A stretch of DNA of 64,000 nt. Origin: Aliiroseovarius sp. GTDB taxonomy: Bacteria > Pseudomonadota > Alphaproteobacteria > Rhodobacterales > Rhodobacteraceae. A program made the position numbers and the translations under genes. How positions within the stretch are numbered: the first letter of the stretch is position 1; every line of letters starts with the position of its first letter. The notes under the pieces are model-generated. The model was not told the origin of the DNA, made no database searches, and worked only from the letters and a program-made list of their open reading frames with translations. Of this stretch, positions 6,712-10,969 are shown one piece after another. The DNA lies in contig NZ_JASBTN010000081.1 in assembly GCF_030148435.1 (NCBI RefSeq), positions 1 through 64,000 on the forward strand. The letters are read 5' to 3'.

Positions 6712-7785
6712 ATGGACGATCTGAGGCAGAAATATATCGACGCGGTTGCCGGGGCGGCAGACGAAAGCGCGCTGGAGGACATCCGCGTGCAGGCCGTGGG
6801 CAAGAAGGGCGAAGTGGCCCTGAAAATGCGCGAACTGGGCAAGATGACGCCTGAGGAACGCCAAGTCATGGGCCCCAGGCTGAACGCGCTGAAGGACGAG
6901 ATCAACTCGGCCATCTCCGCCAAGAAATCCGCGCTGGCCGATGCCGCGCTGGATGAACGCCTGCGCACCGAATGGCTGGACGTGACCCTGTCCGGCCGGC
7001 CCGAGCGGCGCGGGACCATTCATCCGATTTCCCAGGTCACGGAAGAGATCACCGCGATCTTCGCCGACATGGGCTTTTCCGTCGCCGAAGGCCCGCAGAT
7101 CGAAAGCGACTGGTACAATTTCGATGCGCTGAACATCCCGCCGCACCACCCGGCCCGGCAGGAGTTTGACACGTTCTACATGCACCGCGACGCGGGCGAC
7201 GACCGCCCGCCCCACGTGCTGCGCACCCATACGTCACCTGTGCAGATCCGCGCGCTGGAGGCCCACGGCGCGCCGATCCGCGTGATCGCTCCGGGCCGCG
7301 TCTATCGCTCGGATTACGATCAGACCCACACGCCGATGTTCCACCAGGTCGAAGGGCTTGCGATCGACAAGGACATCTCGATGGCGAACCTGAAATGGTG
7401 CCTCGAAGAATTCTGCCGCGCCTTCTTCGAAGTGGACAATGTCGAACTGCGCTTCCGCGCCTCGCATTTCCCCTTCACCGAACCCTCCGCCGAGGTCGAC
7501 CTGCGCTGTTCCTGGGCGGGCGGCCAGCTGAAGGTCGGCGAGGGCGACGACTGGATGGAGATCCTGGGCTCCGGCATGGTGCACCCGAAAGTGCTGCAAT
7601 CGGCGGGCGTCGACCCCGACAAATGGCAGGGCTTCGCCTTCGGCCTCGGCATCGACCGGCTGGCCATGCTGAAATACGGCATCCCCGACCTGCGCGCCTT
7701 CTTCGACAGCGACCTGCGCTGGCTGCGCCACTACGGGTTCAGCGCGCTGGACGTCCCGACCATGCGCGGGGGGCTGTCACGCTAA
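6712..7785 (+). CDS. pheS: Phenylalanyl-tRNA synthetase alpha subunit
   Basis: 357 residues, typical PheS (catalytic subunit of the alpha2-beta2 enzyme charging tRNA-Phe). N-terminal coiled-coil, then class II motifs: [19 protein letters not shown], the [10 protein letters not shown] substrate segment, [20 protein letters not shown] (motif 2) and [20 protein letters not shown] (motif 3). Its stop TAA shares a base with the ATG of a small downstream gene. pheT, normally next, is displaced 790 bp by the small gene, a decayed pheT fragment and an ASCH gene. Confidence 0.97.
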
Positions 7786-7952
7786 TGCCGATCTGGATGA
7801 ATGTTAGTGTGGTCTTGCTGATGGCTCTGGTTGTCCTTTGGGGCGTCAGGGGCCTGATCCGGGAAATTGACCACTCGATGGAAAATTCGGACGCCGAAGA
7901 CGGCTCCGAACCGGAAGAAACGACCGCTGATGAGGATCGGGGCGACCGCTAG
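7785..7952 (+). CDS. Small single-helix membrane protein with acidic tail, coupled to pheS
   Basis: 55 residues missed as a separate entry in the ORF track because its frame is open further upstream. ATG overlaps the pheS stop (TAATG), so translation should be coupled. N-terminal helix VSVVLLMALVVLWGVRGLI is followed by REIDHSMENSDAEDGSEPEE, a strongly acidic tail ending RGDR. Topology is probably N-out, C-in (inference). No family recognised. Its position inside the pheS-pheT interval suggests it is either a native accessory or part of the inserted segment. Confidence 0.6.
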   Translation: MPIWMNVSVVLLMALVVLWGVRGLIREIDHSMENSDAEDGSEPEETTADEDRGDR

Positions 7953-7999
7953 GACGCGCGGCCCGGACCTCTGCCAACCAGCTGACCGAGGAAATGAAC

Positions 8000-8134
8000 A
8001 TGAGATTCACACCCTCCCGCCTGAAAGACCACCTCGACACCACGGCTTCGGTGGGTGAGATCGCCGAGGCGCCGACCGGTCCGGGCCTTTACGGTGTGAC
8101 CTTGACCAACGCCACCGGGCAACAGGGAGCCTGA
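8000..8134 (+). pseudogene. Decayed duplicate of the pheT 5' end
   Basis: Forty-four codons whose first 28 align with the start of pheT (8576): both contain LKDHLDTTASV and EIAEA, and the DNA is close to 90 percent identical over about 85 bp. Differences are mostly amino-acid changing (K2R, L5P, W7R, D19G, L25P, D27G, L28P). After GGGC it jumps to a CTTTACG segment that matches pheT about 46 bp further on, consistent with a deletion between CTGGGC repeats. It ends one base before the ASCH gene ATG. Probably non-functional, though an open frame remains that could be translated upstream of ASCH. Confidence 0.75.
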
Positions 8135-8135
8135 T

Positions 8136-8579
8136 ATGAACGACGACATGGAAGACCTGCAGGTCACATATCCCGGCGCGGGGACGTTCAAGTTTGGCGA
8201 TACGGCCAAGCTGTCGGCAAAGCTGCTCAAACGGGTGCGCGCGGGGCAGAAACGGGCGATCTCGGGCGCGCTTTCGGATTTCGCCGATGATCCGGCCTCG
8301 ATGCCCAAGGTTGGCCGCTGCGATATTGCCGCCAACTGGGATGGCACGCCTGCGCTGGTGATCCGAACGAAATCGGTCCAGCAGGTCCGGTTTTGCGACG
8401 TGACCGAGGAACTGGCCCAGGCCGAAGGCGAAACGCTGGAAGGCTGGCAGCGCGGCCACAAGGCCTATTTTGAACGCAACGGTGGGTTTGACCCCGAAAT
8501 GATGCTGCTTTTCGAGGTATTCGAAGTGGTTGAGGATCTGGCAAGCCGTCCGGCGATGCCGACGAAGGACAAGACATGA
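8136..8579 (+). CDS. ASCH domain-containing protein inserted between pheS and pheT
   Basis: 147 residues fitting the ASCH (PUA-like, RNA-associated) fold: TFKFGDTAKLSAKLLKRVRA at the front, AGQKRAISGAL where the family has GxKxAT/S, then ALVIRTKSVQQVRFCDV, EGETLEGWQRGHKAYFERN and a C-terminal LFEVFEVVEDL. Likely binds RNA or acts as a small hydrolase; substrate not inferable. Its TGA overlaps the pheT ATG (ATGA), so pheT translation may depend on it. It is flanked by a partial duplicate of the pheT start, which points to insertion at this spot. Confidence 0.85.
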   Translation: MNDDMEDLQVTYPGAGTFKFGDTAKLSAKLLKRVRAGQKRAISGALSDFADDPASMPKVGRCDIAANWDGTPALVIRTKSVQQVRFCDVTEELAQAEGETLEGWQRGHKAYFERNGGFDPEMMLLFEVFEVVEDLASRPAMPTKDKT

Positions 8580-10969
8580 AATTCACACTCTCCTGGCTGA
8601 AAGACCACCTCGACACCACCGCTTCGGTGGACGAGATCGCCGAGGCGCTGACCGATCTGGGCCTCGAGGTCGAGGACATCATCAACCCCGCCGAACGGCT
8701 GGGCGCCTTTACGCTGGCGAAAGTCACCTCGGCCTCTCAGCACCCCGATGCCGACCGGTTGCGCGTCTGCACCGTGGCCACCGACGAAGGCGACAAGCAG
8801 ATCGTCTGCGGCGCGCCCAATGCGCGCGAGGGCATTACCGTGGTGCTCGCCAAACCCGGCGACTACGTGCCCGGGATTGATGTGACGCTCTCCGTGGGCA
8901 AGATCCGCGGCGTGGAAAGCCACGGCATGATGGCGTCCGAGCGCGAGCTGGAGCTCTCGGACGAACACAACGGCATCATCGAGCTGCCCTCGGGCGAGAT
9001 CGGCCAGAAGTTCACCGACTGGCTGGCGGAAAACGACCCGGCCAAGGTCGATCCGGTGATCGACATCGCCATTACGCCGAACCGTCAGGACGCGCTGGGT
9101 GTGCGTGGCATCGCGCGCGACCTCGCGGCCCGTGGTATCGGAACGCTGAAACCCGCCCCCGAAGCCAAGGTTGAAGGCAGCTTTGACAGCCCGATCACCG
9201 TCACCATCGACGAGGATACGCGCGACGACGCCCATGTCTTCATGGGCCGCCTGATCCGTGGCGTGAAGAACGGCCCGTCGCCCCGGTGGCTGCAGGACCG
9301 CCTGCGCGCCATCGGGCTGCGGCCCATTTCGGCGCTTGTCGATATCACCAACTTCTTCACCTATGACCAGAACCGCCCGCTGCATGTGTTCGACGCGGAC
9401 AAGGTCAACGGCAACCTGCGGGTGCACCGCACCAAGGGCGGCGAAACGCTGGTGGGGCTGGACGAGAAGGAATACACCTTTCCCGAAGGCGCCGTGGTGA
9501 TTTCGGACGACCATGAGATTGAAAGCATCGCAGGCATCATGGGCGGTCTGCGCACCGGCTGTACCGAGGAGACCGTGAACGTCTTTCTCGAGGCCGCTGT
9601 CTGGGACACGATCCAGATCGCCAAGACCGGCCGCGCGCTGAAGATCAACTCGGACGCGCGGTATCGCAACGAACGCGGAATCGACCCGCAGTTCAACGCG
9701 CCCGCGATCGAGCTGGCGACCCGGATGATCCTGGACTTCTGCGGCGGCGAGGCCTCGCATGTCGTGACCGCTGGCGAAGTGCCTGACACGTCGCGTGCCT
9801 ACAAGCTCGACACCGATCGCGTGGTCAGCCTGGTCGGCATGGAGATCCCGGCGGATGAACAGCGCGCAACGCTGGAAGCCCTGGGGTTCGTGATGGACGG
9901 TGACATGGCCCGGGTGCCCAGCTGGCGCCCGGACGTGCAGGGCCCGGCCGACCTGGTCGAGGAGGTCGCGCGCGTGGCCTCGCTGACCAAACTGGTCGGC
10001 AAACCGCTGGCCCGTGTCGAGACCGGCGTGCCGAAACCGGTGCTGACCCCGATGCAGAAACGCGAAGGCATCGCGCGGCGCACCGTTGCCGCGCTGGGCT
10101 ACAATGAATGCGTGACCTACAGCTTCATCGACGAAGCCAATGCGGCGGCGTATGGGGGCGTGGACGCGAACCGGCTGGAAAACCCGATTTCCAGCGAGAT
10201 GAGCCATATGCGTCCCTCGCTTCTGCCCGGCCTGCTGGCCGCTGCTGCCCGCAACCAGGCGCGTGGCTTCATGGACCTGGCCCTGTTCGAGGTCGGCCCC
10301 GTCTTTCACGGCGCCGAACCGGATGAGCAGGAAACCCTCGTGACCGGCATCCTGGTCGGCCACACCGGGCCCAAGGACCGTTTCGGCGCGCGTCGTCCGG
10401 TCGACACGTTCGATGCCAAGGCGGATATCGAGGCGGTGCTGTCGGCGCTCGGCGCGCCGGCAAAACTGATGCACCTGCGCGACATGAACGCCTGGTGGCA
10501 CCCGGGCCGCTCGGCGAAACTGTCGCTCGGGCCGAAGAACGTGCTGGGCGCCTTTGGCGAGCTGCACCCGAAAGCCATCGAGGCCGCCGATGTGAAAGGC
10601 CCCGTCGTTGCCTTCGCGGTGCATATCGGCAAGATCCCCTTCCCCAAGAACAAGGGGGCCACGCGCGCCGCTCTGGGCGCCAGTGATCTGCAATCGGTCG
10701 AACGCGATTTCGCCTTCGTGGTGGACGCGGACGTCGAAGCGGTGAACCTGGTGAACGCCGCCCAAGGCGCCGACAAGGTGCTGATCGACGAGGTGCGCGT
10801 GTTTGACGAGTTTATCGGCGGCTCGCTGGGCGAAGGCAAGAAATCCCTTGCCATCACCGTGCGCCTGCAACCGCGCGACGCGACCCTGACCGAAAAGGAC
10901 ATCGAGGCGGTCAGCGCCAGGATCGTCCAGAAGGTCGAGAAAGCCACCGGCGGCATGCTGCGCGGCTGA
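8576..10969 (+). CDS. pheT: Phenylalanyl-tRNA synthetase beta subunit
   Basis: 797 residues, full-length PheT. Order of domains seen: N-terminal lobe (MKFTLSWLKDHLDTTASVDE), EMAP-like tRNA-binding domain (LRVCTVATDEGDKQIVCGAP), B3/B4 editing domain (SALVDITNFFTYDQNRPLHVFD and GIMGG), B5 domain, class II-like core (YNECVTYSFIDE, PSLLPGLLAAAARN) and a C-terminal FDX-ACB anticodon domain (VERDFAFVVDADV, SLAITVRLQPRDATLTEKDI). The real start is intact at 8576, with a second, degenerate copy of the first ~28 codons at 8000. A terminator follows. Confidence 0.97.
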   Translation: MKFTLSWLKDHLDTTASVDEIAEALTDLGLEVEDIINPAERLGAFTLAKVTSASQHPDADRLRVCTVATDEGDKQIVCGAPNAREGITVVLAKPGDYVPGIDVTLSVGKIRGVESHGMMASERELELSDEHNGIIELPSGEIGQKFTDWLAENDPAKVDPVIDIAITPNRQDALGVRGIARDLAARGIGTLKPAPEAKVEGSFDSPITVTIDEDTRDDAHVFMGRLIRGVKNGPSPRWLQDRLRAIGLRPISALVDITNFFTYDQNRPLHVFDADKVNGNLRVHRTKGGETLVGLDEKEYTFPEGAVVISDDHEIESIAGIMGGLRTGCTEETVNVFLEAAVWDTIQIAKTGRALKINSDARYRNERGIDPQFNAPAIELATRMILDFCGGEASHVVTAGEVPDTSRAYKLDTDRVVSLVGMEIPADEQRATLEALGFVMDGDMARVPSWRPDVQGPADLVEEVARVASLTKLVGKPLARVETGVPKPVLTPMQKREGIARRTVAALGYNECVTYSFIDEANAAAYGGVDANRLENPISSEMSHMRPSLLPGLLAAAARNQARGFMDLALFEVGPVFHGAEPDEQETLVTGILVGHTGPKDRFGARRPVDTFDAKADIEAVLSALGAPAKLMHLRDMNAWWHPGRSAKLSLGPKNVLGAFGELHPKAIEAADVKGPVVAFAVHIGKIPFPKNKGATRAALGASDLQSVERDFAFVVDADVEAVNLVNAAQGADKVLIDEVRVFDEFIGGSLGEGKKSLAITVRLQPRDATLTEKDIEAVSARIVQKVEKATGGMLRG

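Follow-up and report, generated by a model that had tools for sequence, protein, structure and literature searches.

The window analysed here is a stretch of 64,000 nt from the genome of an Aliiroseovarius species of the Rhodobacteraceae (contig NZ_JASBTN010000081.1). It contains the operon that encodes both subunits of an essential tRNA synthetase, in which the genes on the plus strand are in the order pheS, X, a 44-codon ORF, ASCH and pheT. The left edge of the variable interval is formed by pheS (6712..7785; PF01409, 5.9e-99), whose TAA is overlapped by the ATG of X (7785..7952), a 55-aa ORF with one hydrophobic stretch. The 44-codon ORF (8000-8134) encloses pheT' (8000..8132), a decaying copy of pheT nt 1-133, which is 89% identical to pheT in nt 1-89 and 57% identical in nt 90-133. 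This ORF stops 1 nt short of the start of the ASCH-domain gene (8136..8579; 147 aa; PF04266, 7.7e-18), the final cassette gene before the intact pheT (8576..10969), whose product has the B3/4, B5, FDX-ACB and tRNA_bind domains. As stated in a first-pass annotation made from the sequence alone, the ASCH ORF follows the copy and its TGA overlaps the ATG of pheT at position 8576 in the form ATGA.

A decaying copy of the pheT start

Alignment of the two pheT starts revealed an ungapped direct repeat of 135 nt with 79% identity (7998-8132 and 8574-8708). A recurrence of the first ~85 bp of pheT with about 90% identity had been noted before, and indeed 79 of 89 positions are identical between pheT nt 1-89 and 8000-8088. 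The similarity survives proper alignment and even extends to pheT nt 133: in the same register and with no gap, nt 90-133 are identical at 25 of 44 positions. This weaker part is above chance (p = 1e-4 against shuffles; none of 719 same-phase pheT windows was equally good), and the drop in identity between the two parts is significant (Fisher p = 8e-5). Thus, pheT' corresponds to pheT codons 1-44 and nearly fills the 44-codon ORF. The internal deletion between CTGGGC repeats proposed in the first-pass annotation had to be given up, since an alignment that includes it does not exceed shuffles (p = 0.12) and the colinear match suffices. A possible remnant of the pheS end at 8086-8135 (best p 0.03-0.1) was also replaced by the colinear pheT match, and the pheS match at the junction of the window pheT' is not significant.

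Profiles of the pheT head and the pheS tail were run against all intervals collected from relatives, with reversed intervals, which gave zero matches, as a control. The pheT-head profile recovered the window copy with E = 2e-16, and the best match of this copy among 179 sequences is its own pheT. Given the divergence of 12-43%, an assembly fault is an unlikely source of the duplication. The divergence between copy and pheT steps from 11% to 43% at nt 89, which is the endpoint of the copies in two related genomes, L061 and L063, described below.

The drift of the copy is mainly amino-acid-changing, as had been suggested: in the first 30 codons there are seven amino-acid differences and two silent-only ones. 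With a dN of 0.125 and a dS of 0.123, the two rates are equal, and therefore the window pheT' evolves neutrally, without constraint. This bears on the idea that the 44-codon ORF is a functional leader, which would lend the pheT translation start to ASCH and couple the expression of ASCH and pheT. The ORF is open and ends immediately before the ASCH ATG, and a 32-codon ORF in L061 and L063 ends with ATGA on ASCH. However, such a role is at odds with the equal dN and dS; moreover, most ASCH genes in the family have no pheT', L062 has lost all of it except the final ~25 nt, and in the region neither a promoter-like site was found in a promoter scan nor a match in an Rfam scan. We regard the leader as very improbable, and a regulatory arrangement, which was considered in the first-pass annotation, left no sign in a copy that is free of constraint.

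The ASCH gene and its relatives

The ASCH protein of the window scores 65.5 bits with the profile PF04266, for which the curated cut-off is 21.2, and thus belongs to this family. Its closest solved structures, 3s9x and 1t62, are both of unknown function. Lys39 is invariant in 50 ASCH family members. In the N4-acetylcytidine amidohydrolase YqfB, the catalytic residues are Lys21, Thr24 and Glu74 together with Arg26, and the Lys, Thr and Arg are each essential (PMC6972931). Residue 42 (8259-8261), three residues past Lys39, matches the YqfB nucleophile Thr24 by position; it is Thr in most relatives and Ile in the window. Because of Ile42 in place of Thr, the window ASCH should not, judged from its residues, be classed as a YqfB-type amidohydrolase. 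Another family member, ZmASCH, cleaves single-stranded RNA in a Mg-dependent manner and relies on Tyr47, Lys53 and Ser128 (PMC5615036); by analogy, RNA binding or RNase activity is possible for the window ASCH. Its predicted role is probably that of an ordinary RNA-binding or RNA-processing accessory gene.

Relatives of the ASCH gene were found in 70 of 298 Rhodobacteraceae genomes (one genome per genus). In many of these 70, the gene lies between pheS and pheT, usually without a pheT duplicate, and in several its start directly overlaps the pheS stop. ASCH is thus not the novel part of the locus, and its position before pheT is far commoner than the duplication. Consequently, the proposal that ASCH was captured by the duplication event is not supported: many relatives have ASCH and no copy, one of them (G399, locus L112) has the order pheS-X-ASCH-pheT, and copies of the pheT start also occur beside unrelated cargo. 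Relatives with ASCH and no duplicate, which had been named in advance as speaking against the ASCH-specific story, are largely what we observed. In addition, among 11 ASCH loci away from pheS and pheT, where a search for duplicated gene starts had been suggested, no direct repeat was clearly above shuffles.

In three Aliiroseovarius genomes (L061-L063), the ASCH gene is ~90% identical to that of the window. In L061 and L063, pheT' lies directly 5' of ASCH, in the same place and with the same junction as in the window, and spans pheT nt 1-89, while in L062 it is gone except for the final ~25 nt. The divergence between the pheT' of L061 and L063 is 0.389, and the species dS is 0.36-0.44, as fits neutral decay. 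Comparison of the window ASCH with L061-L063 yielded a dN/dS of 0.07-0.08, which corresponds to purifying selection, and a dS of 0.72-0.81, which is similar to the dS of pheS and pheT. Therefore, the idea that ASCH had entered the window recently by horizontal transfer, which had been raised by the 90% protein identity to L061-L063, was dropped.

The pheS-pheT interval as a hot spot of small genes

Other alphaproteobacterial families represent the empty site: in five of the seven sampled, pheS and pheT overlap by 4 nt, and in the remaining two they are separated by 2 and 108 nt; each of the seven outgroup loci has a single pheT start. The gap in Rhodobacteraceae mostly measures 0.4-1.2 kb (median 0.7-0.9 kb across sets) and contains one to a few changing genes. 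Prevalence was determined from 119 intervals chosen by pheT, since loci found by the ASCH search inflate the share of ASCH in the full set of 179; two of the 119 had been picked for showing a second pheT match. The median length in this set is 727 bp, 11 intervals are shorter than 100 bp, and nine contain ASCH. The sample of ~180 relatives comprises mostly one species per genus, and the controls are simple shuffles. Most of the sampled Rhodobacteraceae genera have cargo at the site, and in 74 of 94 intervals the G+C content is below that of pheS.

The 179 intervals contain 277 ORFs of at least 70 aa, which fall into 113 clusters, 88 of them singletons. Among the cargo families are aquaporin, dimethylargininase, BLUF, Rieske oxygenase, YrhK, DUF2513, MazF/PemK, Doc and HepT. 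In 25 of 92 occupied intervals, the stop of the cargo overlaps the pheT start by 4 nt (ATGA). Across the family, the interval represents a hot spot of many changing small genes and is not specific for ASCH. In 86 cargo representatives, only four weak PADLOC models were matched, which does not correspond to a defence hot spot; one of these representatives matched PycTM (9.9e-5). A search of plasmids for similar DNA gave one weak match and nothing else.

The presence of toxin-antitoxin-type genes (MazF/PemK, Doc, HepT) at the site could be taken as a hint that ASCH is a selfish or addictive gene that has captured an essential operon, as considered in the first-pass annotation. Against this, ASCH is absent from most intervals of relatives (found in nine of the 119) and is missing in the sister genome G266, no partner gene of an addiction-type pair was found for it, and the threonine that is catalytic in YqfB is replaced. 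We found no evidence for a selfish role, as the gene is under purifying selection and its divergence keeps pace with that of pheS and pheT, and hardly any credence is left for this reading.

Truncated pheT starts are present in five further genera, next to other cargo: G401 (pheT nt 1-99), G411 (locus L247; nt 2-88), G165 (L145; nt 1-73) and, on closer inspection, G231 (33 codons; its intact pheT is on a different contig) and G090 (L206), where the copy is longer and frameshifted and lies near transposase genes. Except for G090, the pheT' copies begin at pheT nt 1 or 2, while their right ends scatter (73, 82-88, 89, 99, 133 and beyond). In G401, G411 and G165, the cargo to the left of pheT' is unrelated to that on the right. 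In L061, L063 and G165, pheT' is overlapped by the stop of its left neighbour in the form ATGA, just as the real pheT is by cargo, and pheT' is therefore read, at the level of sequence, as marking the former right edge of the interval. Second pheT matches in G085 and G207 were left out because the copies run off contig ends, and G421, a congener of G165, had to be discarded as a before/after pair, since it has a different interval and no copy.

Several of these loci show additional features. In G231 (contigs C1, ~15.9 kb, and C49, ~39.7 kb), pheS, X and pheT' are located on one contig and the intact pheT deep inside the other; therefore pheS and pheT have parted, leaving pheT' stranded. In L206 (2569-4400), transposase-like ORFs adjoin the long decayed pheT copy upstream of pheT. 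The loci L145 and L247 share a related protein of ~172 aa with hydrophobic stretches, encoded immediately in front of pheT and to the right of pheT'. A second, weak pheT-head-like stretch at ~1112 in L247 (E 4e-4) is the start of a 177-aa cargo ORF.

Mirror scars, that is truncated pheS ends, were detected in three genera. In G323 (L239), a pheS end of 121 nt with 92% identity (interval nt 315-435) recurs past a 98-aa ORF, 315 nt downstream of pheS, and is a young mirror-image event. G296 has a pheS tail of 31 nt with 90% identity. In G411 (L247; interval nt 507-680), a truncated pheS tail is fused directly behind pheT', as would be expected if pheT-head and pheS-tail ends were joined.

That all copies but one begin at pheT nt 1 or 2 and that pheT is intact each time is reminiscent of site-specific mobile elements, which would use the 5' end of pheT as attachment site and restore pheT, like islands at tRNA or prfC ends. 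But the right ends scatter, which disfavours a site-specific recombinase, and the scars on pheS are not accounted for. Furthermore, a search of the 86 cargo representatives revealed no integrase family and one REP-associated transposase only, and thus the interval does not resemble an integrase-driven island. Such an element appears highly unlikely.

Origin of the copy and its meaning

Truncated pheT starts and pheS ends recur beside differing cargo, and the copy in the window decays neutrally. We consider it likely that 8000-8132 is a fossil pheT start, left behind by recombination that was unequal and in part illegitimate, at the place between the two genes where cassettes turn over. In an ancestor of the Aliiroseovarius-like clade, the order would have been pheS-...-ASCH-pheT. 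An ASCH-pheT 5' segment may then have been joined a second time before pheT, either by tandem duplication or as allelic DNA from a relative, by recombination that was presumably homologous within pheT and illegitimate at the opposite end. By this, the inner pheT start would have become pheT', and the outer ASCH would have been lost afterwards, when the left cassette (X) turned over. Short copies might persist because they are poor substrates for loop-out, and the operon would stay in phase because cargo commonly ends in ATGA at pheT, so that insertions do not sever pheT. The history of insertion or duplication outlined in the first-pass annotation thus stands as far as a partial duplication with the old pheT start upstream and the intact pheT downstream is concerned, but not in the new capture of ASCH at that time.

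Of the two origins offered there, insertion and tandem duplication, the latter fits the window clade best. In this clade, foreign entry accounts slightly less well for the data than a tandem duplication of ASCH-pheT 5' after which the outer ASCH disappeared, because an ASCH-like end is found upstream of the L061 pheT' and X is immediately followed by ASCH in G399. For the 18 nt upstream of the L061 pheT', the eight best matches among 179 pheT-upstream sequences are ASCH-bearing loci, mostly of the window clade, the matched sequences being ASCH 3' ends (13/18 identical, mean 5.9). Directly upstream of the window pheT', nothing significant was found when a remnant of an outer ASCH was looked for (p = 0.14). 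In G399, a homologue of X abuts ASCH and no pheT copy is present; the two X ORFs match with E 0.002 over 33 aa in tblastn and with a nucleotide score of 82 (shuffle maximum 56). The gene right after pheS differs in all four Aliiroseovarius-like genomes and G266.

Alternatively, a foreign cassette may have entered by homology-facilitated illegitimate recombination. One side of ASCH-pheT DNA from a relative would have paired with the resident pheT, and its other side would have been linked by an illegitimate joint to a point within the resident pheT start, which thereby became pheT'; the transfer could be by gene transfer agent (GTA) or transformation. For the other genera, foreign DNA is favoured because of the unrelated cargo to the left and right of pheT', and the direct junction between pheT' and the pheS tail in G411 points in the same direction. 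G266, the nearest relative by pheS (96.6%), has another ORF in the interval, no ASCH and one pheT start; therefore ASCH may have disappeared from the window lineage and come back later, a course that would favour foreign entry, as does the closeness of the window pheT' to its own pheT. A vehicle exists, since the genome has a gene for a GTA-like tail protein (PF13550) and GTAs are well conserved in Rhodobacterales (PMC9836097), but nothing ties this vehicle to the pheS-pheT locus. The mechanism itself has been described for T6SS arrays (PMC5361080) and small variable segments (PMC2884548). On the other hand, the synteny of X and ASCH in G399, the ASCH-like end in L061 and the ASCH dS, which argues against recent transfer, all speak against foreign entry in the window clade. 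Altogether, we regard it as a serious possibility, though with the odds against it. Direction and donor are inferred, since the genomes compared offered no before/after pair of a single species.

One observation is not easily reconciled with the fossil described above. Nt 1-89 of the window copy differ from pheT by 11%, while the species dS is 0.5-0.8. An event common to the window and L061-L063 should have left them more diverged, unless gene conversion or independent events took place; the sequences used for this dating are short. The low divergence, together with the own pheT as best match, suggests either that gene conversion by pheT took place or that the copy stems from its own, more recent event. 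In the former case, pheT may have renewed a portion of nt 1-89.

It is tempting to speculate further that the pheT/pheS end serves as a homology-based docking site, at which pheT'-cargo-pheT cassettes move between relatives, for example by GTAs, entering by recombination in the short pheT head and leaving by a loop-out that restores pheT exactly. We consider this rather improbable; if true, it would mean that an essential operon anchors an integrase-free exchange system, in which gene conversion maintains the short head in a usable state.

By analogy, the process is of the same kind as in three known systems, and the statement in the first-pass annotation that no case had been described was too strong. 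The long target duplications of Helicobacter pylori (Nobusato et al. 2000, as described in PMC1643837 and PMC3154945) also place a gene between direct repeats of the target, one copy keeping the gene intact. Likewise, the window has a confirmed direct repeat, and G266 and the seven outgroup loci have a single pheT start. According to these descriptions, the H. pylori case concerns mostly restriction-modification genes in two compared strains, while at pheS-pheT many gene families, one locus and old, decaying scars on both flanking genes are involved. As to the arrival of the insert relative to the duplication, ASCH occurs without duplication in many relatives. In the T6SS displacement arrays of Vibrio cholerae, attributed to homology-facilitated illegitimate recombination, new modules enter with one-sided homology by a conserved anchor and remnants of former occupants are kept; there the remnants are functional immunity genes (PMC5361080), whereas here they are neutral start fragments of an essential gene. 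Small variable segments or microdiversity loci are short, integrase-free variable DNA between core genes, ascribed to illegitimate recombination with or without homology. They are described within species with a median below 100 bp (PMC2884548), in contrast to the whole genes that occupy the pheS-pheT interval almost always and family-wide.

Variable genes also gather, without one mobile element, by the same conserved translation genes in Pseudomonas aeruginosa, where the core defense hotspot cDHS1 has pheS, pheT and rplT in its left flank (PMC10250203). This hotspot lies beyond ihfA, merR and tRNA-Pro and is rich in defence systems, while the Rhodobacteraceae cargo lies inside pheS-pheT and is poor in known defence genes. 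A literature search, to which most subscription journals were outside the scope, found nothing on pheS/pheT interrupted by inserts or used as a cassette site.

The findings are important for several reasons. They point to a cassette-turnover site within an operon that encodes the two subunits of an essential tRNA synthetase, where scars record past swaps. Further, a single conserved locus, simple to align and present in a GTA-carrying group, allows the integrase-free entry and exit of single genes to be tested. Last, genes between pheS and pheT should not be read as functionally tied to the synthetase.
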